The notes beneath the pieces were generated by a model. It saw nothing but the letters and a program-made list of their open reading frames with translations. It was not told the DNA's origin and searched no databases. Positions 2,476 through 42,896 of a stretch of 64,000 nucleotides of DNA are shown here, piece after piece. Within the stretch, counting starts at the first letter, position 1. Every line of letters starts with the position of its first letter. The stretch is from a virus. The stretch spans positions 1-64,000 of IMG/VR virus record IMGVR_UViG_3300034072_002211; one strand, given 5' to 3'. The position numbers and the translations under genes were made by a program.

Positions 2476-5400
2476 TGGCCAAGAAGACTAATCGTAACCC
2501 ATTCGCGTTCACTCCGATTGTCCTGGATCAGGACAACCATGAGAAGCGCCGCGTCATCAAGCAGCTTCCTGCTGTCCATCAGACTGAAACGCTTCAGAAG
2601 TTCTTTGGCGCTTCCTTGGATCATCTCTTTGATCCAGGTAAGGGTAAGCCAATCAATGGTTACGTGGGTCAGAAGCCTCTTTGGTATGATCCTGATCAGG
2701 ACTATTACCTCGAAGAGGGAACGGACGACCGCACCTTCTACCAGCTGGAAGCCAGCATGGTCAGCAAGAACGTCGAGGGTCAGCTCACTGACCTTCTGCC
2801 TTATCCTGATCTGGTTAACCAGCTGCGCTTCCAGGGCGCTCTGACGAACAACCACAACAGGTTGTTCTCGCAGGATTTCTACACCTGGTGCCCACCCATC
2901 GATCTGGACAAGATTGTCAACTTCCGCCAGTATGTCTGGCTTCCAATTGACGACGTCGCACCAACGAGCACCTTTGAAGACGGTCAGACCGACGGTTGGA
3001 TCCTAGCCGATGGTACCCCAGCCCCTGTGAGTGGTCCATACTCAGGAATCAACAAGTTCGTTGGTCGATTCGCTGGCACTCCAGCTGGCGATCAGGTTGT
3101 CAGCAAGACCTTCACGCTGAATAGCGCAATCACGACTGCTAATGCTCAGTTCGACTTCCTTAAGTTGGACTCGTGGGACTACGCTGGCGGCTCTGCTGGT
3201 GTTCGTGAGCGTTTGGTCGTTTACATCAACGATCAGGTTGCTTTTGAATTCACCCCAGTTGGTATCTCAGGTGAAGGCGGTCTAAGCCTCGGTAGTGGCA
3301 CGATTTCGCTCGGCGATATTACCGGCACCTACAACGTGACCTCACCAGGTGTTGACACTCACCTGGGCGCTTCGGCGACTTGGACTGATCGCGTTTATCG
3401 TGTTACGGTCAATCTCACTGGCACTGGTAAGACCTTCAAGCTTGGCTTTGGTTCCACTACCAACCAGGCCATCGATGACGAATCGCTTGGTATCGACAAC
3501 GTTCGCGTTTGGCAGTCCAGCAAGACTGGTATTGAACTCAACGGTCCGACTCACAAGAGCATCAGTCCTGGAACCACCAAGGACTACTTCCTGCCAGGAT
3601 ATGGTCCAACCGGCGATCCTGAGCTTAAGAAGTTCTACGATCTCAGCATCCTGACTGACAAGCTGATCCATGCTGAAGTCGATGGCGTCTCGAGGTCGTT
3701 CACTTACGTTCCGGGTCAGGACAAGATCACCTTTGACCAGCGCCCAGCTGCTGACGCGGAAGTCTCGATCTCTGTTTATAGCGATCTTGAGAATAACGCC
3801 ATTGGCCTGCCAAACGCACGTCCCGAAGCTTTCGGTGGTGTTCAGCTGAGCTCTGGTATGAGGGTGATCATTACCCTCGATCGCAACTCGGATTTCAAGA
3901 AGAGCAACGTCTATATTGTTGAAGGCGTTGGTAGCAGCATCTTCCTCATCAAGGAAGAAGATTGGGGCGCGGGCGCAGCACCTGACTATATGGTCATGGC
4001 CCGTGGCGCAGCAAACCGAAATGAGTGGTCCACCCGTAACCGTTGGTTCCATGTCAGCACTCTGCCTGACAACATGGATCCAGACTATGTGTTGAAGCAG
4101 AGGGCAACTCGTCCAATCATTGAGTTCAACAGGGATCTGGAACTCTACAACTATGGTCTGCGTCGTCGACTCGACGTTGATCTGGTCGTGGAGAACATTG
4201 AAGACCTCAATGGTTACATGAACCAGTTTCCACAGGATGTGACGCTCGGTGGTGTTCGCATCACCACTCGCGGAACCACTCTGATCAATGTTGCGGCAGT
4301 TAACCCACGCACTGGCACCACCTACGGTGACGTGTCGAGCATCCGCGTGATGGTCCGCAACACCGTGAACCCACTGCTGAACAACAATGTCCTGGTTCTG
4401 GTAAACCAGGGTGGTGCTCTCAAGTTGATCCTTGAAACTGATGGTGAGAATCCATCGGGTGAGCCAGTTTACGGTGAAGTGTTCAACGTTCTGCTGGGCA
4501 GCTACTCGGGCAAGAACCTACACTGGGATGGTACCAACTGGGTTGAAAGCCAGCACAAGGTTAAGGCTAATCAGGCTCCTCTGTTTGAGCTCTATGATCT
4601 CAACGGCAACAGCCTGCGCGATGAGGGTCTCTATCCCAACAGCACTTTCAAGGGTTCGCGACTGTTTGGCTACAGGATTGACACTACTGGTTCGCGCATT
4701 GCGGATCAGGCACTTGGCTTGCCACTGATTCACGACAACAAGGGTCAGATCCAGTTTGAGAACTATCTCTCGACTGAGACCTACCAGTATGTGGTGGGCG
4801 GCAAGTTCCTCGATATCGTGGGCTTCTACTTCCACAAGGTCGGCAATATCGACGCTGAGCTAGAGACTCTGAGTAACGACTGGTATAAGGCTCCAACTCA
4901 GACTCGCCAGTTCATGGTTGACCGTTATGTGAGCGATGGCCGCACCAAGCTCTTCAACATCAGCCAGAACGCACAGGACATCACAGTGACCCGAGGTCGC
5001 GTGAATGAGAGCAAGTCCTTCGAGCGCACCACGCTGGTTGAAGACAAGGACTTTATCCGCGTTGGTCGTCAGATCATGATCATCAACATCCAGCTGGGTG
5101 ATGTGATTGAGATCCGCACCTACAGCTCTGAGAATCCACCGGCTGATGCCAAGGGTCACTATGAGGTTCCTCTGAACCTGCAGGCTAACCCAGACAACGC
5201 TGAGGTCGATTTCATGACCAAGGGCGACTTCTACGATCACTTCAGTGAGATCATGAAGAAGCAGGCTGGTTTCAAGGGTGCTGAATACAGCGACAACAAT
5301 TTCCGTGACACCCCCAAGGCGCCAAACCTCGGCACGCATATCATTCAGCACTCTGCTGGTCTGCTGAAGACCATGTTGCTGGCTGGTAACTCGCAGCTGG

Positions 5401-8400
5401 ATATTACCGCAGCTATCCGTTATGCTGATGCTGAGTATGCTCGCTTCAAGGACAAGTTCCAGAAGAAGATCCTCAGCTACACCTTCACTGGTCGTCTCGC
5501 AAATGCCGAGAACTATGACGTGTGGATCAACACGGCACTGGATGAGCTGAACAAGGGCAAGACCAAGCACTTTGCGTTCTACCTTTCGGGTATGGCGCAG
5601 AACGAGTCCAACCGTCTGCCAACGTTCATCCCACCAACTCCAAGTTTCCTCGGCGTCTACCCTCTGTATGCCCCTGAGCTGATCTCTCAGGAGGTCGAGG
5701 GCGCGGACGATGTCTGGTTCGTTCGAGGCCATGATGGTTCTCTGACCCTGGGTGAGAACGAAACTTGCGCCCGTGTGCTCCATGCTCTCGAGCTCAGGAT
5801 CTTCGACAGCGTTACGGCAACTGTTCGCTTGCGTGACCGTCCTGCTTGTGACTTCCAGGAAGCCTATAGTGATCAGTATCGAACCAACGAGTATTCCTAT
5901 GAGGAATACCTACAGGTTCTGCGCCCATCCTTTGAGCGTTGGAGCGTTGCTTACCGTCAGGATTACAAGGTCAACGACCTATCGGATACCACTATTGAGT
6001 CCAAGATCAACCGTAAGGCGAATCCTTGGATGTGGAACTGGTCGTCGGTCCCAATGGCCAATGGTCAGAGTGTCCCAGGTCACTGGCGTGGTATCTATGA
6101 GAAGTTCTATGGCACTCAGCGTCCTGATCTGACGCCTTGGGAAAGCCTAGGCTTTGCGATCAAGCCAGAATGGTGGGATGACCGTTATGGTCCAGCGCCT
6201 TACACCAGCGAGAACCTTGTTCTCTGGGATGATTTGGAGCAGGGTTATATCCATGAGGGTGAACGTCGCGGTATCAATGCCAAGTGGGCTCGCCCAGGTC
6301 TTCAGCAGTTCATGCCTGTTGACGCAAGGGGTCGCCTGCGCCACCCTGGTCCTCGCGATTTGATTGCTTACAATAATGTGACTGCTGACACTGATCTCAG
6401 CTACATTCCAGACCCAACCTACTTCACTGAAGAAAACGGCGGTGGCTGGTTCTGGAAGGTTGAGAACGACACCTACTTGGGTGATGAAGTCCGTGGTCGC
6501 TTTGAGACCAAGGCCGAAGCACTGGCTGACTACGTTCGCTCCTGGGAAGACCGTCACGATGACGGGGTGCTGGGTTGTGGCATCTGTCCTCAGGTTCCTC
6601 TTTACAGCGATCGCGCTGCTGACTGGAACTTTGGTGATATTGGTCCAGTGGAGCAGACTTGGAGGCGTTCGAGCGCATTCGCATTCGCTGCCGCAACTGC
6701 CGGCTATCTCATGAAGCCAGCAAAGTTCGTTGAGCTGGGCTGGAACACCCAGGACATTGGTCTGTTCTTCAAGAACACTCCAAACGAGCAGTGGCTGAAT
6801 CAGGATACCAAGGGCCGCCCACAGCATCGTGAGCTGCAGGTTCATGGCGAAGTCTTGGAAGATCTCAGCCTCGTGACTAAGGTTGGTATTCAGCAGTGGG
6901 TCAGTGACCTGCTCGCCAGCAAGAACACCGCAATCAACGAGAACTTCGCAACTCGCGTGCGCGGTCTGGGTTCACAGCTCAGCTATAAGGTGGCCGGTTT
7001 CACTGATAGCCAGACTCTGGTTGCAGTTACTGACGCATTTGGCCGCGTGCCAAGTGAAGATATCACTATCTCGCTCTACAGGTCACCAAGCATTCGTGAG
7101 GAAACCTACAGTGGTGTGGCAATTGAATACACCGGTCGTGGATATGAGATCTACGGTTATGACGCACTGAATCCTTACTTCAGTGTGATGGCTCCTGCCA
7201 TCCACGCTGGTAGGATCAGTGTTGGTGACGGCGCCAAGAGCGCAGCGGTTCCAAACTGGAACCCAGGCACCTATTACAGCGTTGATATCACGGTCAAGTA
7301 TCAGGACAACTTCTATCGTTCCAACAAGACCCACACCAGCTCTAGCTTCTTTGAGCCTGAGTTCTGGACGCAGGTTGCTCGCCCTCAGTATGCTGATGGT
7401 TCCACTCTGCTTTGGTATCTCGAGGGTGAACTAGACCCTGTTGCTGAGAAGATTGCCTATGGCACCGTGCTCAAGACGCCACAGGATGTCGCTGACTTCC
7501 TCAATGGCTACCAGCGTTACCTGGAATCTCGTGGCTGGATCTTTGAAAATCTGGGCGAGGATGAACAGGAAGTTCGCGATTGGAAGCAGGCACTGAAGAG
7601 CTTCATCACTTGGAGCCGCGCAGATGTTCGTCAGCCAGGCGATTACATCACTTTGAGCCCAAGCAGCAAGCTGGTTCGTTTCGCTACGGATCAGGGCACT
7701 ATTCAGCCCATCGAGCAGATCATCAATGGTCTCTATGCGATTGTGGATCAGAATGGCCAGCCCATTGACAGCCAGGCAACTCGCGTGGTTCGCAACGATG
7801 GCAACATCACAGTGACCTGTGACGCGTCTACGAGCGGCATCTTTGGTCTGAGGCTCTACGTAAGTGAACTGGAGCATGTTCTGGTCTTCAACAACAAGAC
7901 CATCTTCGGCGATACCATTTACTCGCCGCTGCTGAACATCAAGCAGCCACGTATTCGCCTTCAGGGCTTCAAGACTGTTGGCTGGAAGGGTCGCATTGAC
8001 GCCCCTGGTTTCATCGTTACTGGTGACCGTCTGACGCCAAACTTTGAACGTGCGGCTGACGACTTCCGTCGCTTCTTCGACATTGAATCCATGGAGAACA
8101 AGAAGCTTCAGGACCGTGCGCGTGCGAACTTTGGTTATGAGGAAAAGGAATACCTCAACAACCTGCTGCTCACCCCAACGAACCAGTTTGAGTTCTATCA
8201 GGGCATGATTCAGCAGAAGGGTTCTTCGACCTCGATGCGCCGTCTCCTGCGCTCCAACTTCATCCGCCACAACAAGGGCCTGAAGCTGTTCGAGGAGTGG
8301 GCATTCCGCGTTGGTGATTACGGCGGCCAGGAGGTTACGCCGCAGCTGGATATCCAGATTCGCCAAAGCGAGTTCAAGCACAACCCACAGCTGATTCAGT

Positions 8401-11400
8401 TCAGCAATGCTGTGACGCCAAACACCTATGGTATCATCGACGTGGTGGACCTCAATGTGGGTCAGGACAACCGCGCACTTGATGATCGTTGGCACTGGCG
8501 CCCAGACATGAAGGCAATTGAATGGCCACTCCGTGACTTCGGTCAGGGCGATGCTCCTCTGCCAACTGCTGGCTATGTGAACCTCGATGAAGTCCGCTTC
8601 ACAGTTGCCACCAAGGCTGAGTTTGAGGACTTCTTCGGTCAGCAAGAAGCTACCGATGAGCCCCTGGAAGCAGGCGACCGCGTTTGGGTTTACGGCATCG
8701 GTTCTGGCAAGCCAGAGGATTCGTGGATGACCTACAAGTTCCACGACACTGGTTACAACATCCTGAACACCTTTATGCCAACCTTTGAGGGTCAGGGCAC
8801 TGTGGTTCAGTTGGACCAGAACATCAAGGGTTATCAGAACGCTGACACAAACCCATGGAACACCACGTTCTATGTGGCTCAGCCTCTGCTGGCAGGTGAA
8901 AACGACGAGAATGGTAACGCAATCTCGGGCGAAATGCTGGTTCTCAAGAACCTCCAGGATGCTGACGTTAACCCACGCACTACCTACAAGCCAAGGGTGC
9001 TGGGCAAGGCAAAGCTGGCTCTCACTGGAACCAGTGGCACCACCGGCTTTGTGATGGGCTTCACTCCTGAGGCTCAGCAGATGATCCACAGGATCAAGGT
9101 TATTGTCGATGAACCATTCGCTGAGGGTTCCACGTTTGAGCTGGGATACCAGAACGACTTGGATGCTTTCGTGGCTATCCGTGAGGAAGATCAGAGGGAC
9201 ATTTATCCAACCAACTACGACAACGAAGCGGTGTTGGTTCAGACCCCTGCGACGTCCTACATGCCACCAAACGTCTCGACTGCTGACGTTGAATTGATCC
9301 GTGTGGGTCGAGTCTCGAACTTCTGTGCTCAGACGGTGGTTGAATGGTATTGGACCCGCAGCGACGGTTCTACGGCAAATGGCTCGGTGACGTTCCTGCG
9401 TCCTAGCGACGTTGTTGGTGACACTGACACGGATGATGCCTACCTGCAGACCATCCAGCTGCCAGTTACCCCTTCTGCTATGTCGGGCACATTGAGGGTT
9501 GTGACCAACGGTGTTCAGACTGACGTTCAGGTTCTGACTTTCCTCCGCACAAACCAGGCCGGCATCAACTCGGTTGATCTGACCCGTGCTGCTACCTATG
9601 AGTTCAGCCGCGCTGTCGGTATGTCCATGTATCCATGGAACACCAACACGGCTGGTGCTGATCGCGAGATGATCGCAACTCTGAACAGCCTTGGCACGCA
9701 GGGTTCTTTGCGCGTTGAGGTCGACTACTTCTACGTCAAGGGTTTTGAGCTTACCGAAGTGCTTAACGGCGCTGTGGTTCCAGCAACTTCCAACGTTGAT
9801 GGCGGCACCGCTGATGTGTTCACTTGGATTAAGACTCGCTACCCAAGCCTGAACGGCATCTCGGGTGCCCTACAGGACGGCGATCTTATTGAGGTTGACT
9901 CGGCACATGACACCCCAGGTCGTTGGGCTGTCTACAAGAAGGTCGTCAGTGAGTGGACCATCGTGCGTCGTCAGAATCGCAAGATCAACAGCGATCTCCT
10001 GACTAGCGCAGGTATCTTCAACAGCCAGGAGAACAAGCTCAAGCTGATTCTTCAGGTCTATGATCCCTACAAGGGCTTCATCCCAGGTGTCGCTGATCGC
10101 GAACTGGAATTCAAGACCTTTAACGATCCTGCGGTTTACAATGACGGTCGTATGATCTGGGGTAAGGAACAGGTTGGTAAGCTGTGGTGGGACCTCAGCG
10201 CTGTTCGCTATCTCGATTATGAAATCTATGACTCTTGGAAGTCGAATGACCACAGTGGTGTAAACTACCGCTGGAAGAACTGGGGCCGTGTTGCTCCAAA
10301 CTCCAGCGTGGATATCTACCAGTGGGTCAGGAGTCCAGTTGCTCCAAATGGCTGGTCTGACTACGTTGAGAGCAAGGCTGATCTGAAGATTGACAACAAG
10401 CCAACTGGCACTGTCGAGGAAGACGCCAAGTATGTCACCGCCACTGAGTGGAATGATGATATCCAAGCTGACGAGACAATCTATTACTTTTGGGTTAAGA
10501 ACCCAACGGTTGTTCCAACTCTGCCTTCGCGCAAGCTGTCGGCAAAGCAGGTCAGCAACATCCTCACGGATCCAGCAGCCAACGACATTCCGTTCTTTGC
10601 GGTCATTGACACCAACAAGGTGATCGTAGGTGGTATCAAGCAGTTCCTCAACGAAACTGATACGGTGCTCAAGATCAAGTGGCTCAAGGATGCTGAGATC
10701 ACCAACAACCACCACAAGCAGTGGATGATTCTGCGTGAGGAAGACGAGCGCAACACCATCAACGACACGCTATGGAACAAGATGCGTGACTCGCTGGTTG
10801 GTTGGGACTCGACTCAGAAGTATGTGCCTGATGAGAAGCTACCAGGGGCTCAGCAGATTGGTGCTATGGTTCGTCCTCGCCAGAGCTGGTTCCCAGCTGA
10901 TGCTTCGCCAAATGGCGGGCAGCGTCCAAGTCGTAGCGCCCGCGCGGCATTCGTGGATTGTCTGAATGACATCCTGAGTGAGCAGCCGTTCATCGACCAG
11001 TGGTATAACTGGAGCGAAGTGTTTGACAAGGGTGAGAACCTGCCAGCACCAGACCGCTACATCACCACTGCGCTGGATCTTGTTGATCTTCGCAACTTGC
11101 TGCCAGCGGCACGCAATATGGTTCAGCCCGGCGAATGCGTGCTCATTCAGAACACTGCAGAAGCTGCTGGTTTCTGGACCCTGTGGAAGCTGGTTGAAAT
11201 TGCTGGCCAGCGCCAGTTTATCCTCGAGGACTTCCAGAAGTGGAGGATGCAGGAGGGCGAACTGTGGAGTCTTGCTGATTGGTATGCTGATGGTTGGTCG
11301 GCTAAGAACTTCCCCAACTATCGTTTCCCAACCACTGCGGCACGCGATGCGGCAGGTAACTTGGACGTGACTCTGCTGAAGGGCACGTTGGTTCAGATTG

Positions 11401-13574
11401 ACCACAGCGATGGCGATGGCCGTTGGACTTGGGACGTCTACACCTCAACCTCGAAGTATCAGGTTGCTAAGGCGCGTTCCACGATGAAGCTCAGCGAAGC
11501 ATTCTATGATGATTCGCGCGTGGAGTTTGGTCCTCGCCAGGTGGCAGCAATCCTAGGCGCAAGTGAAGCAACCCGTATCACACCAGAGAGGATTCAGGAA
11601 CTCGCAGACATCATCAACTATCGCGATGGTTCAAGCGAGATTGAGTTCATGCTGAACACCATGAAGACTATCCTTCTGAACACCCTTCAGAAGAACAGGC
11701 TCTTCTTTGGCATGGTCAAGAGCGCGTTTAAGCAGAGCCAGGTCGTTGACTGGGCATTCAAGACGTCGTTCCTCTACCTGGGCGGCTATTCGGAGACCCT
11801 GCGTCAGAGCCCAGTTGCCTTCAAGGATCAGATTGACAACGTCATTGCCTACTTGGAAGAGGTCAAGCCATACCACGTCAAGATTCGTGAGTATGTGCGC
11901 CGACTGAGCTATGGTCCTGACCTTGCTGATCTGGCAATCACTGACTTTGACAAGCCTGTCTATCCAGACGGTCAGCGCAATCGCGTTCTCGACGTTAAGA
12001 ACGAGAACGACCGCAACATCATGGGTATCAACCGTCCTTGGAAGGATTGGTTCGAGAACTATGAGAAGGCACCAACGCCACTGACCAAGTGGGATCTGGA
12101 GTGGAACGGCGTTCGCAAGATGAACGTGACCATGAAGTTCGACCGCATTTCTTGCGGCACGGTTCGTGGTTGGGATACGGCTCCTTGGGATCCACCACTT
12201 CTCGTCTACAGCCAGATTGGCAGCAATACGCAGAGCCTCAGTCAGCTGAATGCTCTCTACAGGAATGTGAACACCCAGGGTGAGCTCAACTACTTCCGCG
12301 ATCAGACTGTGGAAACCATTGAGGAACGCAACTTCCTGGTGCGTAAGGGCATCATTACACCAGACCGTCCAGGTTCGATTGTAACTGTCCTTCAGGAAGG
12401 CTCCCACTATATGTGGACCGGCAACGAGTGGATCAAGTTCGAGGCCATTGGCTGGGATCAGGATCCCGACATGGGCACCGCAACCCGCATCGAAGATGCT
12501 TACCGTCCTCTGCCTGGTATGACCCGTAAGGATGATCCAGGTGTGATTGCTGGTTGTGAATTTGACGGCACGGTGATGACTGACACGTTCCAATATGACG
12601 CTTGGGACATCTTCGAGTGGGATTCCACTGGCTACAGCCAGGGTATCCGTGAACGTGCTGGCTTCGATCAGGAAACTGTTGATGGCAACACTACTCCTGC
12701 TGATGAGAACGATCCTGCTTACGTGGGCATCACTGGCAATGAGTTCAGCCAGCCAGCAGTGAACGGCGCACGTCCTCATGAGCTGGTTCAGATCCGTGGC
12801 GTTGAAAGCGTTGTGATCAACGTCCGCAAGGCTTCTGGCCCTTACATGAAGAACTTCATGAACGCACAGGGCAAGTGGCAGGACACTCTGGTCAGTCAGA
12901 GCGAAATGACGTTTGTTTCCTGGGATCAGAGCGCCCACTCAGTGACCCTGACGGTGCCTAGCTGGACTGAGGATGCTCAGGGCTACACGCCGCTACATGA
13001 CCCTCAGAACCCTTCTACGGGCTTCATCAAGAATGTCATGTTGAGCAAGGGTTACAGGTCTTCAAGCAATGTGGACATGAGTGCCGCAGGAACCAAGACC
13101 TTCAAGCTTCGCGATCTCAGTGATATTGATGGTATTCCAGCTGGTCTGAGGGGCGACAATGTGAACGTTGCGGTTGTGAACACCAAGGATCCAACCAAGC
13201 GCGCAATTGGTGTTCTGTCAAACAGCAAGGGTAGCGAAAAGAACTGGGACGGTCAGGTCACTATCACGTTCTCAACGGGCTTCGTGAACCTTGGTTCGGG
13301 TAAGAGCTGGAACATCATCCCAGTTGATATGTTCAACGAACCAGGCATCGTGTGGGTAGGTGACGCACGCTTCACCTACAACAGCATGACCCGCAATGGT
13401 TCGACTGTGGTCCTCGAAAATGCCTACCTGTCAGCAAGCACCTTGGCACCACTGAACATCACTGAAGATGGTGTTTCGCTGGTCAAGACTTCGCCGGTGC
13501 TGGACGGCTCTATCCAGCGCAGGATGGCAAGCAACCATTCTGACGCAGTGCCTCACGGCCCTAACAGGCCGTGA
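2475..13574 (+). CDS. Giant baseplate/tail structural protein (3,699 aa)
   Basis: This single frame of 11.1 kb takes up 17% of the window. It sits directly after the gp6-like gene, where T4 has gp7 (about 1,030 residues). The N-terminal 160 residues contain 'LPAVHQTETLQKFFGASLDH', a type of opening I associate with large virion proteins of T4-like phages. Residues about 165-347 look like an inserted beta jelly-roll (FDFLKLDSWD, RERLVVYIND, DESLGIDNVRV). Near residue 3,130 is 'VIAYLEEVKPYHVKIREYV', a conserved signature of T4-like baseplate-region proteins. No membrane segment, signal peptide or enzyme motif was seen. It likely forms an outer baseplate wedge arm or adhesin. The structural role is well supported by position and length; the exact gp7 equivalence is inference. 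Confidence 0.7.
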   Translation: MAKKTNRNPFAFTPIVLDQDNHEKRRVIKQLPAVHQTETLQKFFGASLDHLFDPGKGKPINGYVGQKPLWYDPDQDYYLEEGTDDRTFYQLEASMVSKNVEGQLTDLLPYPDLVNQLRFQGALTNNHNRLFSQDFYTWCPPIDLDKIVNFRQYVWLPIDDVAPTSTFEDGQTDGWILADGTPAPVSGPYSGINKFVGRFAGTPAGDQVVSKTFTLNSAITTANAQFDFLKLDSWDYAGGSAGVRERLVVYINDQVAFEFTPVGISGEGGLSLGSGTISLGDITGTYNVTSPGVDTHLGASATWTDRVYRVTVNLTGTGKTFKLGFGSTTNQAIDDESLGIDNVRVWQSSKTGIELNGPTHKSISPGTTKDYFLPGYGPTGDPELKKFYDLSILTDKLIHAEVDGVSRSFTYVPGQDKITFDQRPAADAEVSISVYSDLENNAIGLPNARPEAFGGVQLSSGMRVIITLDRNSDFKKSNVYIVEGVGSSIFLIKEEDWGAGAAPDYMVMARGAANRNEWSTRNRWFHVSTLPDNMDPDYVLKQRATRPIIEFNRDLELYNYGLRRRLDVDLVVENIEDLNGYMNQFPQDVTLGGVRITTRGTTLINVAAVNPRTGTTYGDVSSIRVMVRNTVNPLLNNNVLVLVNQGGALKLILETDGENPSGEPVYGEVFNVLLGSYSGKNLHWDGTNWVESQHKVKANQAPLFELYDLNGNSLRDEGLYPNSTFKGSRLFGYRIDTTGSRIADQALGLPLIHDNKGQIQFENYLSTETYQYVVGGKFLDIVGFYFHKVGNIDAELETLSNDWYKAPTQTRQFMVDRYVSDGRTKLFNISQNAQDITVTRGRVNESKSFERTTLVEDKDFIRVGRQIMIINIQLGDVIEIRTYSSENPPADAKGHYEVPLNLQANPDNAEVDFMTKGDFYDHFSEIMKKQAGFKGAEYSDNNFRDTPKAPNLGTHIIQHSAGLLKTMLLAGNSQLDITAAIRYADAEYARFKDKFQKKILSYTFTGRLANAENYDVWINTALDELNKGKTKHFAFYLSGMAQNESNRLPTFIPPTPSFLGVYPLYAPELISQEVEGADDVWFVRGHDGSLTLGENETCARVLHALELRIFDSVTATVRLRDRPACDFQEAYSDQYRTNEYSYEEYLQVLRPSFERWSVAYRQDYKVNDLSDTTIESKINRKANPWMWNWSSVPMANGQSVPGHWRGIYEKFYGTQRPDLTPWESLGFAIKPEWWDDRYGPAPYTSENLVLWDDLEQGYIHEGERRGINAKWARPGLQQFMPVDARGRLRHPGPRDLIAYNNVTADTDLSYIPDPTYFTEENGGGWFWKVENDTYLGDEVRGRFETKAEALADYVRSWEDRHDDGVLGCGICPQVPLYSDRAADWNFGDIGPVEQTWRRSSAFAFAAATAGYLMKPAKFVELGWNTQDIGLFFKNTPNEQWLNQDTKGRPQHRELQVHGEVLEDLSLVTKVGIQQWVSDLLASKNTAINENFATRVRGLGSQLSYKVAGFTDSQTLVAVTDAFGRVPSEDITISLYRSPSIREETYSGVAIEYTGRGYEIYGYDALNPYFSVMAPAIHAGRISVGDGAKSAAVPNWNPGTYYSVDITVKYQDNFYRSNKTHTSSSFFEPEFWTQVARPQYADGSTLLWYLEGELDPVAEKIAYGTVLKTPQDVADFLNGYQRYLESRGWIFENLGEDEQEVRDWKQALKSFITWSRADVRQPGDYITLSPSSKLVRFATDQGTIQPIEQIINGLYAIVDQNGQPIDSQATRVVRNDGNITVTCDASTSGIFGLRLYVSELEHVLVFNNKTIFGDTIYSPLLNIKQPRIRLQGFKTVGWKGRIDAPGFIVTGDRLTPNFERAADDFRRFFDIESMENKKLQDRARANFGYEEKEYLNNLLLTPTNQFEFYQGMIQQKGSSTSMRRLLRSNFIRHNKGLKLFEEWAFRVGDYGGQEVTPQLDIQIRQSEFKHNPQLIQFSNAVTPNTYGIIDVVDLNVGQDNRALDDRWHWRPDMKAIEWPLRDFGQGDAPLPTAGYVNLDEVRFTVATKAEFEDFFGQQEATDEPLEAGDRVWVYGIGSGKPEDSWMTYKFHDTGYNILNTFMPTFEGQGTVVQLDQNIKGYQNADTNPWNTTFYVAQPLLAGENDENGNAISGEMLVLKNLQDADVNPRTTYKPRVLGKAKLALTGTSGTTGFVMGFTPEAQQMIHRIKVIVDEPFAEGSTFELGYQNDLDAFVAIREEDQRDIYPTNYDNEAVLVQTPATSYMPPNVSTADVELIRVGRVSNFCAQTVVEWYWTRSDGSTANGSVTFLRPSDVVGDTDTDDAYLQTIQLPVTPSAMSGTLRVVTNGVQTDVQVLTFLRTNQAGINSVDLTRAATYEFSRAVGMSMYPWNTNTAGADREMIATLNSLGTQGSLRVEVDYFYVKGFELTEVLNGAVVPATSNVDGGTADVFTWIKTRYPSLNGISGALQDGDLIEVDSAHDTPGRWAVYKKVVSEWTIVRRQNRKINSDLLTSAGIFNSQENKLKLILQVYDPYKGFIPGVADRELEFKTFNDPAVYNDGRMIWGKEQVGKLWWDLSAVRYLDYEIYDSWKSNDHSGVNYRWKNWGRVAPNSSVDIYQWVRSPVAPNGWSDYVESKADLKIDNKPTGTVEEDAKYVTATEWNDDIQADETIYYFWVKNPTVVPTLPSRKLSAKQVSNILTDPAANDIPFFAVIDTNKVIVGGIKQFLNETDTVLKIKWLKDAEITNNHHKQWMILREEDERNTINDTLWNKMRDSLVGWDSTQKYVPDEKLPGAQQIGAMVRPRQSWFPADASPNGGQRPSRSARAAFVDCLNDILSEQPFIDQWYNWSEVFDKGENLPAPDRYITTALDLVDLRNLLPAARNMVQPGECVLIQNTAEAAGFWTLWKLVEIAGQRQFILEDFQKWRMQEGELWSLADWYADGWSAKNFPNYRFPTTAARDAAGNLDVTLLKGTLVQIDHSDGDGRWTWDVYTSTSKYQVAKARSTMKLSEAFYDDSRVEFGPRQVAAILGASEATRITPERIQELADIINYRDGSSEIEFMLNTMKTILLNTLQKNRLFFGMVKSAFKQSQVVDWAFKTSFLYLGGYSETLRQSPVAFKDQIDNVIAYLEEVKPYHVKIREYVRRLSYGPDLADLAITDFDKPVYPDGQRNRVLDVKNENDRNIMGINRPWKDWFENYEKAPTPLTKWDLEWNGVRKMNVTMKFDRISCGTVRGWDTAPWDPPLLVYSQIGSNTQSLSQLNALYRNVNTQGELNYFRDQTVETIEERNFLVRKGIITPDRPGSIVTVLQEGSHYMWTGNEWIKFEAIGWDQDPDMGTATRIEDAYRPLPGMTRKDDPGVIAGCEFDGTVMTDTFQYDAWDIFEWDSTGYSQGIRERAGFDQETVDGNTTPADENDPAYVGITGNEFSQPAVNGARPHELVQIRGVESVVINVRKASGPYMKNFMNAQGKWQDTLVSQSEMTFVSWDQSAHSVTLTVPSWTEDAQGYTPLHDPQNPSTGFIKNVMLSKGYRSSSNVDMSAAGTKTFKLRDLSDIDGIPAGLRGDNVNVAVVNTKDPTKRAIGVLSNSKGSEKNWDGQVTITFSTGFVNLGSGKSWNIIPVDMFNEPGIVWVGDARFTYNSMTRNGSTVVLENAYLSASTLAPLNITEDGVSLVKTSPVLDGSIQRRMASNHSDAVPHGPNRP
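2967..3515 (+). other. Jelly-roll domain inserted in the giant protein
   Basis: Codons about 165-347 of the giant protein form a compositionally distinct block. It opens with a 'TFEDGQTDGW' strand, contains a 'FDFLKLDSWD' core and 'RERLVVYIND', and closes with 'DESLGIDNVRVW'. This order resembles the beta-sandwich modules of bacterial secreted calcium-binding and adhesion proteins. The flanking sequence returns to the phage-like pattern. Carbohydrate or surface binding is inferred, not shown. Confidence 0.45.
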
Positions 13575-26709: not shown

Positions 26710-26981
26710 CCCTCGATGCTGGAGATCTCGATCTCCAGATAATAGTCTTCAGCCATCATCTGGAGAACTCCGCCTTCGATCCATGCTTCTTGGCGAGGAT
26801 CGAACTCAGCCCAATCCAGAGAAGCCGGCGACACTGTGACGGCCTTTCCTTTGTGGTGTTGGACGAAGAGATCCATGGGAGCGAAAGCCGGTGGATTCTC
26901 GGCATCACGAGCTCGATACTTGCGGGCGCTGTAGGTCTGGCCATTGACCAGCTTGTCAGCTAGATCTGAACCCTTGCTCAT
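26706..26981 (-). CDS. Hypothetical protein, 91 aa
   Basis: A 91-residue protein with a basic N-terminal third and an acidic, beta-rich C-terminus ('MMAEDYYLEIEISSIEG'). It overlaps the GlyRS-like gene by four bases (ATGA) and is co-translated with it. No family recognised. Confidence 0.55.
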   Translation of the reverse strand: MSKGSDLADKLVNGQTYSARKYRARDAENPPAFAPMDLFVQHHKGKAVTVSPASLDWAEFDPRQEAWIEGGVLQMMAEDYYLEIEISSIEG

Positions 26982-27796
26982 TCACTCGGCTCCCTGTTGA
27001 TGTCGTCACGCTGGGCCTGTTGCCAGTTGTAGACGCAACGGTCGAGGCCGATGGCAATCTCGAGCACGAGCGCATCCTTTTCGACCAGACCTTTCTTGCT
27101 CTGGAAAGCCAGCTTCTGAGGGAAATCAGTCCGCTTGCTGATGCTGCAGACTTCCATCCACTTGTCGCCGTTCCAGACCTCGACGTCCATGGTGCGGAGC
27201 GAATAAGCGGGCAGACGATCACTCTCCACAAGCCGCGTCGGCAAGTGAATCTGAGAAGCGATCATCTTGCGGACCTTCTCCAGCATCTCTTCCTGATAGT
27301 CGAGAGCTGTGTCGGCGCTGTAGACGCACTGAAACTCCTGCTGGTAGAATTCCTTGAGCCGCATGTGCTTGGTTGGCTGGACGATCTCGCGCCGGAAACT
27401 CTTACCGGCCTGCCAGACGCAGAAGGGCGGGAAGATGCTCAGTTGATTGTTGAGCAGGTATTGCGCGTAGGCGTAGCTGCCGGGCGTCGTTTCGGGCCGC
27501 AGAGCCAGTTCACGGTAGCCTTGCCGCGCCTGCGTCAGAGCCTCGAACTCTTCTTCAGTTTTGGCAGGAGCATCCACGTCTTCCTGAACCCAGATATCCT
27601 GTTCGGTATAGTTGACGTTGAGGAGGTCGCGCGGAGTCAGCAGCGGTGCTTCCACGAAGAAGAACTTCCACTGTGGGTTGAGGGCAACAAGGTCCCGCTG
27701 AACTGTCTGGGCGAAGAAGTCCCGGAAGTGTTCGCGGAGCCGGATCTCTTCCTCACTCCAGAAGATCAGGCCGTTGATGTCAAAGGTATTCTGCAT
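26978..27796 (-). CDS. Minimal glycyl-tRNA synthetase-like class II enzyme
   Basis: The 272 residues cover a class II synthetase catalytic core. 'LRPETTPGSY' (99-108) matches GlyRS 'LRPETAQG', and motif 2 'GKSFRREI' (131-138, R135) is followed by 'MRLKEFYQQEF'. 'WMEVCSISKRTDF' (213-225) fits the GlyRS glycine-site region, and motif 3 is 'IAIGLDR' (247-253). The C-terminus ends about 20 residues later, so the anticodon-binding domain is missing. It may charge a minihelix, modify something other than tRNA, or use a partner. It follows the 27798 gene at one-base spacing. Confidence 0.75.
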   Translation of the reverse strand: MQNTFDINGLIFWSEEEIRLREHFRDFFAQTVQRDLVALNPQWKFFFVEAPLLTPRDLLNVNYTEQDIWVQEDVDAPAKTEEEFEALTQARQGYRELALRPETTPGSYAYAQYLLNNQLSIFPPFCVWQAGKSFRREIVQPTKHMRLKEFYQQEFQCVYSADTALDYQEEMLEKVRKMIASQIHLPTRLVESDRLPAYSLRTMDVEVWNGDKWMEVCSISKRTDFPQKLAFQSKKGLVEKDALVLEIAIGLDRCVYNWQQAQRDDINREPSE

Positions 27797-27797
27797 G

Positions 27798-28178
27798 TCA
27801 GACCAACTTCATTGGCGTGGGCAGGGCAACGTAGGCGCCTGTCTTGGGATAACGGATGTGGGTTGCGGTGGTCGTCCCGTCCTCTTGGATCTCCACGCGG
27901 AAGTAGATCTCCAGCCCCGAATAGCGGAAGTTGTCGCTACAGCTTTCCGGGAGGTTGAGCTGGATGGCGTCATGATCCCGCGAGTCCTTGGTGGACCCTA
28001 CCTGATAGTCGTCCCAGATGATGGGAAACTTGGGCTTCTTGGCCTCTTCCTCACGGCGAGCCAGCTCAGCCTGCATCCGCTGGATCTGCCCCTGTAGGTC
28101 CTCGTCGCTCTTCCCGGCGAAAGGATCGCGCTTGGGCGCGGTATCGTCAATACCACCGGGAAGAGGAGAAATGCTCAT
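27798..28178 (-). CDS. Hypothetical protein, 126 aa
   Basis: ATG 28178 is chosen because it overlaps the stop of the 28175 gene (ATGA) and longer versions would run into that gene. The N-terminus has a charged helix ('DEDLQGQIQRMQAELARREE'). The C-terminal 70 residues are beta-rich ('YSGLEIYFRVEIQEDG'). No family recognised. Confidence 0.55.
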   Translation of the reverse strand: MSISPLPGGIDDTAPKRDPFAGKSDEDLQGQIQRMQAELARREEEAKKPKFPIIWDDYQVGSTKDSRDHDAIQLNLPESCSDNFRYSGLEIYFRVEIQEDGTTTATHIRYPKTGAYVALPTPMKLV

Positions 28179-28696
28179 TTGAATGCTCCAAGGGCAACGA
28201 GAATCAGACCTAGGATCACAGCCATAGTGCCAATAATCAGCGTGGGAAAGCTGATTCCTTTCTTCACGACCTGTGGTGCAGGTGGAGTTGGCTTGACCGG
28301 CTCGGGCTTGGGAACGCGAATGCCCAACGAACCACCCCAATCGAGATTGTCCCAGGGGATGCCACCCCGATTGTTGTTGCCCATACTGTGGCCGGTGCGG
28401 ATAAACAGGTTCTCCGAAGCGGCCCAAGCATCCAACTCACGCCACACCGCATTGTAGGGGCTCTGAGGGTTGCTATGGGAGTTCTTGTAGCCAGCATCCA
28501 GAGGAGCGGCAAAGAGATGCCGGATCTCTTTGGGAGCCAGGACGGGAGCATAGTCATTCCCGCCCTTGTCGATTTGTGTTGTCAGCGCGTTGAGGAGGTC
28601 CTCTTTGACAAACTTACGGAGCATGTCCGACCTGCGCGTCACTCGTTCCTGGCGGCGCAGTTCTTCAGTTTGCTTCAGTTGTTCACCAATCGACAC
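28175..28696 (-). CDS. C-terminally membrane-anchored protein, 173 aa
   Basis: The start is set at GTG 28696, eight bases after GAGG, because the earlier in-frame ATG lies inside the tRNA gene. The N-terminus is a charged helix and the middle a polar globular part. A Pro-rich linker ('PKPEPVKPTPPAPQ') leads to one membrane segment at the very C-terminus ('FPTLIIGTMAVILGLILVAL'). A tail-anchored topology with the bulk in the cytoplasm is expected. Unknown function. Confidence 0.55.
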   Translation of the reverse strand: MSIGEQLKQTEELRRQERVTRRSDMLRKFVKEDLLNALTTQIDKGGNDYAPVLAPKEIRHLFAAPLDAGYKNSHSNPQSPYNAVWRELDAWAASENLFIRTGHSMGNNNRGGIPWDNLDWGGSLGIRVPKPEPVKPTPPAPQVVKKGISFPTLIIGTMAVILGLILVALGAFK

Positions 28697-28716: not shown

Positions 28717-28792
28717 TGGCGCTCCCGGTGGGGCTCGAACCCACGACCCGCAGATTTAGAGTCCGCTGCTCTGCCAGCTGAGCTACGGGAGC
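28717..28792 (-). tRNA. Suppressor tRNA, anticodon CUA (reads UAG)
   Basis: A complete 76-base cloverleaf on the - strand. The 7-bp acceptor (GCTCCCG/CGGGAGC) is perfect, the D-arm is GCTC/GAGC, and the anticodon stem is GCGGA/TCTGC with one G-T pair. The anticodon loop is CTCTAAA, the variable loop has five bases, and the T-arm is GTGGG/CCCAC with loop TTCGAGC. The discriminator is G73 and CCA is encoded (28717-28719). Anticodon bases 28759-28757 read CUA, so it decodes the amber codon. G73 and U35 fit charging by a glutaminyl-type enzyme, but the amino acid cannot be settled by eye. Confidence 0.93.
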
Positions 28793-28803
28793 ATGTAACC
28801 TGT

Positions 28804-29262
28804 TTAGGACTTTTTCTCCAAAGCGTCAAGCCGTGCGGCAATTTCCTGGACCAGTCGCAGCGTCTCCTCAGAGTTCTGCTTGATCTGCTCCTGCTCATCA
28901 TGAGTCCAGGCGTTGCTGTCTACGATCATGTGGGCGGCCAGCTTGGCCGTGATGATCGGTGCCACGAGGAAGGAGCAGATGTGCATGAAGATTGCGCCGA
29001 AGAATCGGCTGCTCGTGTGGGTTGGCGAATAGTCGCCATAGCCGACGGTGGTCGCCGTGACGCTGGCCCACCAGTAGCCCTCTGCGAGCTTCTTGCCCTC
29101 GATGAAGCTGAACATGACCGCTGCGAGGGTCATGATCAGTAGGTATGCGATCAACAGGCTGAATAACCGGTTGAACATCTTTTGCATCAGCGTGAGCTCT
29201 TGTCCCGCATGGACTGCGGTGCTCAGGATGTCGCTACCGGCTTGTTCGATCTGTCTACGCAT
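28804..29262 (-). CDS. Potassium channel, two membrane segments
   Basis: A 152-residue protein with the canonical K+ selectivity filter 'TVGYGD' (72-77) after a pore helix ('YWWASVTAT'). It lies between two membrane segments, about residues 33-54 and 86-112. The C-terminal 35 residues form a coiled coil ('EETLRLVQEIAARLDALEKK') that could tetramerise it. The layout is that of KcsA/Kcv-type channels. It has its own promoter and a strong GGAGG site, and lies 11 bases upstream of the suppressor tRNA. It would act in the host inner membrane, perhaps to change membrane potential. Confidence 0.92.
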   Translation of the reverse strand: MRRQIEQAGSDILSTAVHAGQELTLMQKMFNRLFSLLIAYLLIMTLAAVMFSFIEGKKLAEGYWWASVTATTVGYGDYSPTHTSSRFFGAIFMHICSFLVAPIITAKLAAHMIVDSNAWTHDEQEQIKQNSEETLRLVQEIAARLDALEKKS

Positions 29263-29311: not shown

Positions 29312-29339
29312 AAAAGGGCGCCAGTTTCCTGACGCCCTT
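29312..29339 (-). terminator. Terminator after the 29361 gene
   Basis: A 7-bp stem (AAGGGCG/CGCCCTT, 29314-29320 with 29333-29339) whose right arm runs into TTTT on the - strand. It lies directly before the channel promoter. Confidence 0.6.
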
Positions 29340-29951: not shown

Positions 29952-31304
29952 TTAGGACTTCCTCCATTCGGTGCCGTGAACGCCATCGGCCAGCGTGATC
30001 CCCATATCAGTGAGCTGCTGACGGATCCTATCAGCCTCCCCGTAGTTTTTGGCCCTACGTGCCTCTTGACGAGCCGCAATTAGAGCCTCGACAGCCTCCT
30101 TGTCAACACCAAGTGTCCGCCATTGGTGCGGAGTATGGTTAAAGAGACCGAGAAACTGACCAGCCTTGATCAGTCGAGCCTTTGCGGGCGCCTTGTCCTT
30201 GGCATGGTCGAGGTCATCTGCGAGTCTATGGAGGACAGACAGAGCTGTGGTGGTATTGAGGTCCTGCGATAGCGCAGAGATGATCTCTGCTGGCACATCA
30301 ACGTCCTCGGCGTAGTTGAGCTCGTCGTGCCGATAGAGGACCTCATAGAGCCCGTCGAGGGCACGATGCGCCATGTCCAGCTTGTCCATAGTAAAGTCCA
30401 TGGGCGAGCGGTAATGTGACTGCATGAAGAGGTAACGAACGCTCTCCGCGGGATACTGATCGAAAAGCTCGTTCAAGAGGATCACGTTGCCGCGGCTCTT
30501 GCTCATCTTTTCGCCATTCACTGTCAGGAGACCGTTGTGTATCCAGTAGTTGGCAAGCGGAGCACCGTTGTGGTGGCACTGGCTCTGAGCGCACTCGGCT
30601 TCATGATGCGGAAAGCGCAGATCCTGACCACCACCGTGAATGTCGATTGTTGGACGTGCGAACGTGTGGTTGATCATGGCCGAGCATTCAATATGCCAAC
30701 CCGGCCGCCCCTGGCCCCAAGGCGAGAACCAGCTTGGCTCGCCCAGCTTTGCGGGTTTCCAGAGCACGAAATCTCTGGGGTCCTTTTTCTTGGGATCGAC
30801 CTCAACCCGTGAACCCGCTTCCGTGTGGGTGTGATTTGCGAGACCGGGATGGGGATTGCTGGGAACGTGGAAGAAAACCTCCCCGTCCACCGCATAGGCA
30901 TAGCCGTGATCGATCAGTGCGATGATCATGGCAATCATACCAGGAATGTGCTGGGTGGCCCTTGGTTCCACAGTGGGCGGCAAGCAAGCCAGAGCCTCGA
31001 GATCCATATGGTAGGCCGCGAGTGCCGTGTCAGTGATCTGGCTGATCGGAACACCGCGCTCGATTGATGCTGCGATGATCTTGTCATCCACGTCCGTGAT
31101 GTTGCGGACATAGCGGACTTCGCGCTCTCCGTAGACGTGGCGCAGAAGCCGGAAGACCTGGTCGAACACGATGGCTGGGCGCGCGTTACCGATATGCGCT
31201 GGCCCATAGACCGTTGGACCACAGACATACATAGCCACCTGCTGCGAAAACGCAGGCTTGAACTCTTCCACTTGGCGGCTCTGACTGTTGTAGAATGTGA
31301 TCAT
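29952..31304 (-). CDS. cysS: Cysteinyl-tRNA synthetase
   Basis: A full-length 450-residue class I synthetase that charges tRNA-Cys. It has the HIGH-type motif 'HIGN' (37-40), KMSKS (266-270) and the zinc ligands C28, C207 ('GWHIEC') and 'HHEAEC' (233-238). 'DIHGGGQDLRFPHHE' is diagnostic for CysRS. The C-terminal helical domain ('YGEADRIRQQLTDMGI') is also present. All expected motifs are intact, so it is probably active. The ATG lies six bases after the -10 box of a TTGACA promoter. Confidence 0.96.
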   Translation of the reverse strand: MITFYNSQSRQVEEFKPAFSQQVAMYVCGPTVYGPAHIGNARPAIVFDQVFRLLRHVYGEREVRYVRNITDVDDKIIAASIERGVPISQITDTALAAYHMDLEALACLPPTVEPRATQHIPGMIAMIIALIDHGYAYAVDGEVFFHVPSNPHPGLANHTHTEAGSRVEVDPKKKDPRDFVLWKPAKLGEPSWFSPWGQGRPGWHIECSAMINHTFARPTIDIHGGGQDLRFPHHEAECAQSQCHHNGAPLANYWIHNGLLTVNGEKMSKSRGNVILLNELFDQYPAESVRYLFMQSHYRSPMDFTMDKLDMAHRALDGLYEVLYRHDELNYAEDVDVPAEIISALSQDLNTTTALSVLHRLADDLDHAKDKAPAKARLIKAGQFLGLFNHTPHQWRTLGVDKEAVEALIAARQEARRAKNYGEADRIRQQLTDMGITLADGVHGTEWRKS

Positions 31305-31694: not shown

Positions 31695-32534
31695 TTATTC
31701 CAGATCCAGACCGGACCACTCTCTAAGAGCCGCTCGGCTAACGCCTTCAACGACTTTTGCCAAGTCGCAAGCATAGAGTCCCGCGCAGCTGAATCCGTTG
31801 AGTTCGACAATGCGAGGTCCTTCCGCAGTTAGCGCAACGTCACAGGTATAGGCAATGTCAACTTGCCACTCATGATCAGCTACCATTTGCGCCAAGTCCC
31901 AGCATTCCTGGGGCCAATCACGCCTGATGTCAAGCTTGCCATCCCAGCGATATTCGGATGCTGCGATAACTTGCTTGTCGGCAATCACAAAACGGAATTC
32001 ACCCTGGATATCAATACCAGGATTCACAAAGCACATGGTTTCATCCATGACACCAGAGAGCTTGTCTAGCGTCTCGATATCATGGTCGATTGTGCCATAC
32101 ATCATGCGCTGACCCGCAAAGGTCTTGAACCCACTATCGGGGCGCAGAAACAGCATGTTGGTATCGTGCTGATAGAATAGATCCCGGCGACGTTGCTTGA
32201 ACATCGCCCAGGTCATGAACACGCCGTCACGGTTGAGAAACCAGTAGATCGGCAAATTGCTCATGTAGGCGGAGGCACGAGTCCGCTCGTTTACACCCAG
32301 ATGCCCTGGCTGAAATCTTCCGTCGGGATTGACGGCTTTGACGAAGCTGTGTGATCCAAAAAGAATCGTGCATTCATCAGGTCGAGGAGCCACACTGGCG
32401 TAGGACCCGTCAGCGTTGCGTTCAACTCCGACAACTTCATAGCCTGCGGCTCGAATGGTATCGGGGAGGCCTCGCCTATCATGCGTGAGCCTTTCTAGGA
32501 TCTGATTGTCAAGAATCCAGGTAATGGGTGCCAT
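31695..32534 (-). CDS. ATP-grasp domain protein
   Basis: A 279-residue protein. The C-terminal half has ATP-grasp features: 'GIDIQGEFRFVIADKQVIAA', then 'VDIAYTCDVALT' and the metal-binding 'PRIVELNGFSCAGLY'. These enzymes join a carboxylate to an amine or thiol at the cost of ATP. The substrate is unknown; related phage proteins are known mainly by sequence. The ATG lies six bases after a -10 box. Confidence 0.75.
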   Translation of the reverse strand: MAPITWILDNQILERLTHDRRGLPDTIRAAGYEVVGVERNADGSYASVAPRPDECTILFGSHSFVKAVNPDGRFQPGHLGVNERTRASAYMSNLPIYWFLNRDGVFMTWAMFKQRRRDLFYQHDTNMLFLRPDSGFKTFAGQRMMYGTIDHDIETLDKLSGVMDETMCFVNPGIDIQGEFRFVIADKQVIAASEYRWDGKLDIRRDWPQECWDLAQMVADHEWQVDIAYTCDVALTAEGPRIVELNGFSCAGLYACDLAKVVEGVSRAALREWSGLDLE

Positions 32535-42020: not shown

Positions 42021-42896
42021 CTACTTAGTAGCAACCTCGATTTGAGTCAAGGTAAAGGGTGGATTTTCCCTCGGATAGCCCCGAGCGTTATTGGCATAAA
42101 TCACACCATCAATCTCGGTCATCTTCCGCGTGTGAGTGTGACCATAGATCCAGTAACGAATCTTGTTGTTCACATCCGCATCAAGAACTTGCGACAAGGC
42201 GGTGTTCACGTAGCTGGGAGTCAGCGCATTCCAGACCGTGTTGCCGGGCTTCCACTCCATGATGTCAGCACGTGGGCTCATATGGGTAGCAACCACAATA
42301 CTCTCAATGGCATCGTCCTCACTGGCCAGCTTTACCTGGGATGCTAAGTTGATTGCCTGCTCAGCAGCAAGGCTTTCGGGGCTCTTGAGGTCGAAGTTGG
42401 GATAGCGGGAGTCATTGGAATACTGAACCCACGCGCGCTTGGCCGTGAAGTCAGGAATACCAGCCGTCTCATAGGCCTTGAAATCATACCAGCCCACCGC
42501 TCCAAAGAATGCTACCCCATCCACGAGCAAGCCAGTGTCATGCTTGAGGTGGTAGACGTTTGGATACTTGGCGAGTAGCTGAGTGAAGAAGGCATTGCCC
42601 TGATCTACCGTCATATCATTCTGGTAGTGATCATGGTTGCCTTCCACGACGACCACATACTCATATTCTTCCGCTGCCGCAGCAACCACCTGCCAGCTGG
42701 TCATCATGGTGTTCGCAATATCACCTGCGATCACTAGAACACGGCTGTCTGGGTTCTTAAACTGGCGCCAGTCAATGTAATAGAACATGGACTTGAAAGG
42801 CTCACCGGCCCACATGCGACGCTCAGGGTCGTGAAGCTGAGTCTTGCCGAACCAAGCATCCACGTGGAGGTCAGAGCAGAAATCAATCTTCATCAT
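42021..42896 (-). CDS. Calcineurin-like metallophosphoesterase
   Basis: A 291-residue enzyme with the full metal-site series: 'SDLHVD', 'IAGDIAN', 'EGNHDH', 'ATHMSP' and 'YGHTHTRK'. The substrate may be a nucleotide, cyclic nucleotide or phosphoester. The stop codon is TAG, followed two codons later in frame by TGA. That is notable because the phage encodes a UAG-reading tRNA. Confidence 0.88.
   Translation of the reverse strand: MMKIDFCSDLHVDAWFGKTQLHDPERRMWAGEPFKSMFYYIDWRQFKNPDSRVLVIAGDIANTMMTSWQVVAAAAEEYEYVVVVEGNHDHYQNDMTVDQGNAFFTQLLAKYPNVYHLKHDTGLLVDGVAFFGAVGWYDFKAYETAGIPDFTAKRAWVQYSNDSRYPNFDLKSPESLAAEQAINLASQVKLASEDDAIESIVVATHMSPRADIMEWKPGNTVWNALTPSYVNTALSQVLDADVNNKIRYWIYGHTHTRKMTEIDGVIYANNARGYPRENPPFTLTQIEVATK

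Follow-up and report, generated by a model that had tools for sequence, protein, structure and literature searches.

A putative amber-reading tRNA gene conserved upstream of a GlyRS-like synthetase core in Phosso-related jumbo phages

Introduction

The Xanthomonas jumbo phage XacN1 carries amber tRNAs for which in silico read-through gave no target gene (PMC5852040), and a tRNA-CUA without known target is reported in Ralstonia phage RsoM2USA (PMC8504454). Agrobacterium phage Atu_ph07 has a tRNA-UCA (PMC6102473). RsoM2USA and Atu_ph07 are related jumbo phages, each of which has one suppressor tRNA among many tRNAs. Partial recoding of UAG is known in other phages, and a CUA tRNA is present in about half of the phages predicted to use code 15 (PMC11210395).

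The tRNA described here has the anticodon CUA and lies in a stretch of 64,000 nucleotides (the window), taken from the start of a virus record of 277,444 bases (G000) that may be incomplete. The record is that of a jumbo phage, whose DNA polymerase is nearest to that of Sinorhizobium phage Phosso (58%), followed by Agrobacterium phage Atu_ph07 (52%), so the tRNA is phage-borne, as predicted, and Phosso is the nearest isolate. The window also encodes a virion structural protein of 3,699 aa (2475-13574) and a valyl-tRNA-synthetase-like protein of 462 aa (57945-59333), which has about half the usual length and scores below the NCBIfam cut-off.

Structure and conservation of the tRNA gene

The tRNA and its anticodon are located as follows.
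28717..28792, minus strand: tRNA-CUA (predicted amber suppressor) with G73 and encoded CCA (ARAGORN; Rfam RF00005; covariation over nine orthologues)
28757..28759, minus strand: anticodon C34 U35 A36 in the loop CTCTAAA (orthologue alignment; ARAGORN anticodon position 34; pattern match)

ARAGORN makes a single tRNA call in the 64-kb window, at 28717-28792 on the minus strand with anticodon CTA. Scoring against a tRNA model, a check that the original prediction had proposed, gives 64.1 bits (E 1.3e-11) for Rfam RF00005, above the gathering score of 29. The sequence reads GCTCCCG TA GCTC AGCTGGCA GAGC A GCGGA CTCTAAA TCTGC GGGTC GTGGG TTCGAGC CCCAC CGGGAGC G CCA, in which the acceptor, D, anticodon and T stems are all complete. 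The acceptor stem has 7 bp and zero mismatches, the anticodon stem has 5 bp, C34-U35-A36 is followed by A37 and A38, and G73 precedes the encoded CCA. The amber-tRNA pattern matches the window once, at this gene, and none of 100 shuffles of the window. The complete cloverleaf with CUA and encoded CCA, which had been predicted from the sequence, is confirmed by ARAGORN and Rfam, which add the strand that the prediction did not give, and the anticodon agrees with the predicted reading of UAG.

Free folding of the tRNA by energy alone did not return the cloverleaf. Energy-only folding often fails to give the cloverleaf for tRNAs, and the covariation test is better evidence for the structure. ARAGORN labels the gene tRNA-Pyl because of the anticodon CTA, and the label reports nothing more. 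A pyrrolysine tRNA, which would have a 6-bp anticodon stem and short variable and D loops, is ruled out by the anticodon stem of 5 bp, the two-base spacer between acceptor and D stems and the variable loop of 5 nt.

An alignment was made of the window tRNA and its counterparts by synteny, of which seven come from IMG/VR records and one from Phosso. The gene occupies one conserved place within a collinear gene block throughout this set of nine. All 21 stem pairs are standard in every orthologue (100% of cells paired), and 15 of them show compensatory changes on both sides. The acceptor stem varies at each of its seven pairs. The observed pairing was reached by 0 of 500 shuffles, and pairing falls to 30-45% in slid versions. 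C34-U35-A36, the loop CTCTAAA and G73 are invariant in the nine orthologues, and the encoded CCA is absent from four (L023, L025, L026 and L027). The Phosso counterpart bears the GenBank label "tRNA-Undet", yet its anticodon reads CTA. Stems that are kept by compensatory change, together with the fixed CUA and G73, indicate that this is, by its anticodon, a UAG-reading tRNA maintained by selection.

Number and spread of amber tRNAs

G000 has 25 tRNAs by ARAGORN, two of them with anticodon CUA. The second lies outside the window at G000:253634-253712 (L019:9634-9712) and has A73; it is about 0.4 kb from a tRNA-Ile(UAU), and G006 likewise has an A73 amber tRNA near tRNA-Ile(UAU). ARAGORN also gives Phosso and G003 two CUA tRNAs each, and G002 has three; the totals for the four genomes are 25-62 tRNAs. 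The type linked to the GlyRS-like core described below has G73, while an ACCA terminus, and hence A73, marks the second copies (G000, Phosso and G006) and the extra copies (G002 and G003). G002 and Phosso each have 62 tRNA genes by ARAGORN, which cover nearly all amino acids.

Of 21 related records, the amber-tRNA pattern matches 12; reversed as a control, it matches none. It is strict and misses the extra CUA tRNAs of G002 and G003 found by ARAGORN, so absences that are based on it are provisional. Amber tRNAs are present in at least 120 IMG/VR stretches, some of which may come from recoded phages. Among the cellular genomes of 84,980 species a tight pattern matches only two MAG contigs, which points to a viral tRNA type.

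UAG as a stop codon

Crude gene calling in G000 gives 22 TAG, 168 TGA and 196 TAA stops (5.7% TAG), where the TAG ends include some spurious frames opposite the ORF at 151-2475. The share of gene ends with TAG across the clade is 5.6-8.1%, and in the window the gene at 42021-42896 is the sole convincing one that ends in TAG. No RF-1 family protein was found in the G000 record.

Frames that read through TAG, and those through TGA and TAA as controls, were compared among four genomes and kept if their own frame was the best coding frame on both sides of the site. This filter leaves 10 candidates for TAG, 4 for TGA and 29 for TAA. Under code 15, in-frame TAG would be expected inside conserved genes; no TAG lies within conserved coding sequence in the four genomes compared. 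The conserved TAG at G002:24716 and G003:314053 is rejected as read-through, because it is directly followed by the ATG of the next gene. The candidate G000:172801-173214, where an open frame continues into the next one, is also rejected, because its TAG lies just past a promoter-like motif common to G002 and G003. The motif, TTGAC...TGCTAAA followed by TAGGCAGCAAC, is found at gene boundaries in the regions of G000:172803, G002:96457 and G003:384992, and is absent from the 64-kb window. The genes 3' of it in G002 and G003 differ from those of G000, so the open frame after the TAG looks accidental, and a homology search in isolates with the 137-aa frame upstream of this candidate gave no match.

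The ends of orthologous genes point in the same direction. Orthologues were available for 87 of 148 TAG-ended genes, giving 160 pairs. The partner ends in TAA or TGA in 114 pairs, the alignment reaches the C-terminus of the query in 128, and only 4 partners continue for at least 10 aa past the TAG-ended query. The peptides downstream of TAG differ between orthologues. Because TAG-ended genes end where their TAA- or TGA-ended orthologues end, and post-TAG peptides are unconserved, UAG is a true stop in the phage genes examined, though a rarely used one.

That the code is not globally reassigned, as originally proposed, agrees with the failure to find any in-gene UAG. The accompanying statement that most amber codons stand at gene ends holds in that UAG is a stop, and is refined in that such ends are rare, at about 6% genome-wide and one convincing gene in the window. 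We infer, rather than observe, that the phage makes UAG ambiguous, since no UAG was found inside a gene.

Charging and proposed role

The explanation favoured here, with somewhat more confidence than doubt, is that of a functional UAG-decoding tRNA that is charged by the host, makes UAG leaky and is most likely used in trans. The tRNA would decode UAG in competition with host release factor 1, and the phage would have at least two such tRNAs, one with G73 and one with A73. The amino acid on the window tRNA is probably glutamine or lysine, attached by host synthetases. With UAG kept as a rare true stop, the tRNA would not recode phage genes, and UAG would be leaky during infection. The most likely use would be UAG read-through on host or competitor mRNAs, together with tolerance of chance amber codons.

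The isolates nearest to G000 infect Rhizobiales, which are not known to have GlnRS; the host of Phosso, S. meliloti, is believed to be without it. The core of the amber tRNA is closest to the phage's own tRNA-Lys(CUU), with 84.5%, and CUA is one step from both CUU (Lys) and CCA (Trp, G73), which are the candidate origins. By bacterial identity rules A73 and U35 favour lysine, and an E. coli amber tRNA-Lys changed to G73 becomes a suppressor that inserts glutamine in part (reviewed in PMC9976931). The suggestion that G73 and U35 would suit glutaminyl charging therefore stands in part by E. coli rules, and is weakened by the Rhizobiales hosts of the nearest isolates. Two phage enzymes are rejected as chargers: GluRS, because Phosso has the tRNA and no GluRS match, and CysRS, because cysteine tRNAs carry U73 (4 of 5 here) and the amber tRNA carries G73. 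The bacterial-type glutamyl-tRNA synthetase at G000:167799-169049 (416 aa, 443.7 bits, above the cut-off) is of a type present in several clade members and unmatched in Phosso.

A rival explanation, considered unlikely, is host takeover, in which the suppressor adds tails to host proteins whose genes end in UAG, to the detriment of the host and not of the phage. It presupposes that UAG ends are commoner in host genes than in phage genes. Of only 37 genes sampled over 49 kb of pSymB from S. meliloti, the host of the nearest isolate and perhaps not that of G000, about 17-24% end in TAG. The 5.6-8.1% of the clade also compares with 10-16% in three jumbo phages that resemble it in GC and have the GlyRS-like enzyme, and in which neither the pattern nor ARAGORN, run over 200 kb of each, finds a CUA tRNA. 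However, over all 14 phages TAG avoidance is not associated with the presence of a CUA tRNA (p = 0.44), the clade is one lineage, and TAG stops are few in XbC2 (1.9%) and Atu_ph07 (4.2%), in neither of which a CUA tRNA was found; the share is 1.0% in XacN1, 9.3% in G010 and 9.8% in G018, and it is with these five phages added that the association is lost. In the subset with GC of 44-54% the association has p = 0.019 (eight versus three genomes), which is suggestive of a link, in a subset picked after seeing the data that counts one clade as six genomes. TAG avoidance is therefore rejected as proof of suppression. Backup stops after TAG show no excess (28% versus 29%) and, as avoidance does not track the tRNA either, read-through may be weak or rare.

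The neighbouring genes and the GlyRS-like core

The genes and sites around the tRNA are the following.
29952..31304, minus strand: cysteinyl-tRNA synthetase, same block (TIGR00435 455.8 bits, cut-off 340)
29314..29339, minus strand: terminator-like hairpin (consensus scan only; 6 sites found in the region against 3.6 expected)
28804..29262, minus strand: K+-channel-like gene (Pfam PF07885 (Ion_trans_2) and PF00520; synteny)
28175..28696, minus strand: small gene downstream of the tRNA, with likely GTG start at 28696 (ORF and translation; present in only some relatives)
27798..28178, minus strand: 126-aa protein, between tRNA and synthetase (synteny)
26978..27796, minus strand: stand-alone class II aminoacyl-tRNA synthetase core, GlyRS-like (PF00587 E 4e-11)

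The K+-channel-like gene ends 11 nt upstream of the tRNA on the same strand, in line with the predicted link between the two. The gene is missing in three of the nine phages that keep the tRNA (L021, L025 and Phosso), so the link appears incidental. A longer ORF of the small gene, which extends to 28744, would overlap the tRNA. The channel gene, the tRNA and the synthetase core may form one transcription unit, from which the hairpin, a consensus match, would split the CysRS and p29361 genes. The R2K ATP-grasp protein at 31695-32534 adjoins the CysRS gene and is kept in the block.

The GlyRS-like enzyme mentioned in the original prediction is real. It has 272 aa and is encoded 0.9 kb downstream of the tRNA. 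GlyRS is its best sequence match (profile, E 6e-13), and the predicted fold (AF2 pLDDT 85.6) matches GlyRS in Foldseek (E 2e-13). Class II motifs 2 and 3 are kept; only the catalytic core matches, with no anticodon-binding domain. The score against the NCBIfam GlyRS equivalog is 61 bits, far below the cut-off of 312, so the protein is called GlyRS-like and is not assigned to GlyRS. The family is found in about 20 phage records (Caulobacter, Brevundimonas, Xanthomonas and Sinorhizobium) and 25 IMG/VR loci, and is annotated as seryl-tRNA synthetase or as hypothetical, varying by record.

This enzyme could charge the tRNA and form a phage-owned pair with it, which is judged improbable. Throughout the nine-phage clade the enzyme gene follows the tRNA at a distance of 0.05 to about 1.9 kb, the enzyme keeps its class II motifs 2 and 3 without an anticodon domain, and G73 is invariant. 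However, all nine phages share one gene order from RNA ligase to Pnkp, so this neighbourhood is expected and adjacency is weakened as proof of pairing. The enzyme and the tRNA are not always found together. The strict pattern, whose absences are provisional, finds no CUA tRNA in XbC2, CcrSC, Atu_ph07, G008, G012 and G019, all of which except Atu_ph07 are listed with the enzyme; beside the core, XbC2 has a tRNA-Ser(GCT) and CcrSC no tRNA. Among 80 viral amber-tRNA loci the enzyme is present in only two, both already in the set, and 78 are without it nearby. The acceptor stem varies at every pair, which would leave only G73 for the core enzyme to read. With a collinear block and an enzyme found elsewhere without the tRNA, the pairing claim rests on conserved position. 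That in Phosso-like phages such a pair inserts a defined residue at UAG, independently of host synthetases, is given still less credence.

About as little probability is given to a non-decoding role, such as that of an anticodon-nuclease decoy or of a substrate in aminoacyl-tRNA-dependent chemistry. The block holds an RNA ligase, a Pnkp kinase-phosphatase and the R2K ATP-grasp protein, enzymes of tRNA repair and peptide ligation, but CUA and the A36-A37-A38 of the loop are strictly conserved, as expected of UAG decoding. Least probable, and mostly refuted, is that UAG is sense or undergoes programmed read-through in some phage genes: despite its precedents and the open frame after a few TAGs in G000, conserved coding sequence holds no TAG, both strong candidates are explained, one by a TAG-ATG junction and the other by a promoter-like motif, C-ends coincide with those of TAA- or TGA-ended orthologues, and the filtered sites (10) compare with 29 and 4 in the TAA and TGA controls.

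Comparison with described systems

This clade of phages offers a clean case, in which nine orthologues are under demonstrable selection, G73 and A73 types occur, no phage gene is a visible target and a compact synthetase core lies beside the tRNA. The purpose of a suppressor tRNA in a phage that does not recode becomes testable in the isolate Phosso. If the core did charge the tRNA, the two would make up a miniature amber pair of natural origin, of use in work on the genetic code.

XacN1 and RsoM2USA already provide published examples of amber tRNAs that lack known targets, and the evidence of selection here is unusually good. The position of the tRNA upstream of a stand-alone GlyRS-like core in all nine phages is new. 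The phage resembles XacN1, which has two CUA tRNAs, a standard code and the loop CTCTAAA, and whose amber tRNA is about 83% identical to the window tRNA over 71 nt. Unlike the window tRNA, the XacN1 pair sits in terminal repeats beside small genes, and XacN1 is not among the 20 of 22 records listed in the tblastn search for the GlyRS-like core. The suppressor of Atu_ph07 differs in that it reads UGA, and no CUA tRNA is found there by pattern. Code-15 phages (crAss-like and Lak) likewise encode a UAG-reading tRNA, but in them UAG is sense inside many genes, whereas no in-gene UAG was found here. The E. coli amber tRNA-Lys with G73 shares with the window tRNA a Lys-like core, CUA and G73, although it is a laboratory mutant in a host with GlnRS, an enzyme that the host of this phage may lack.
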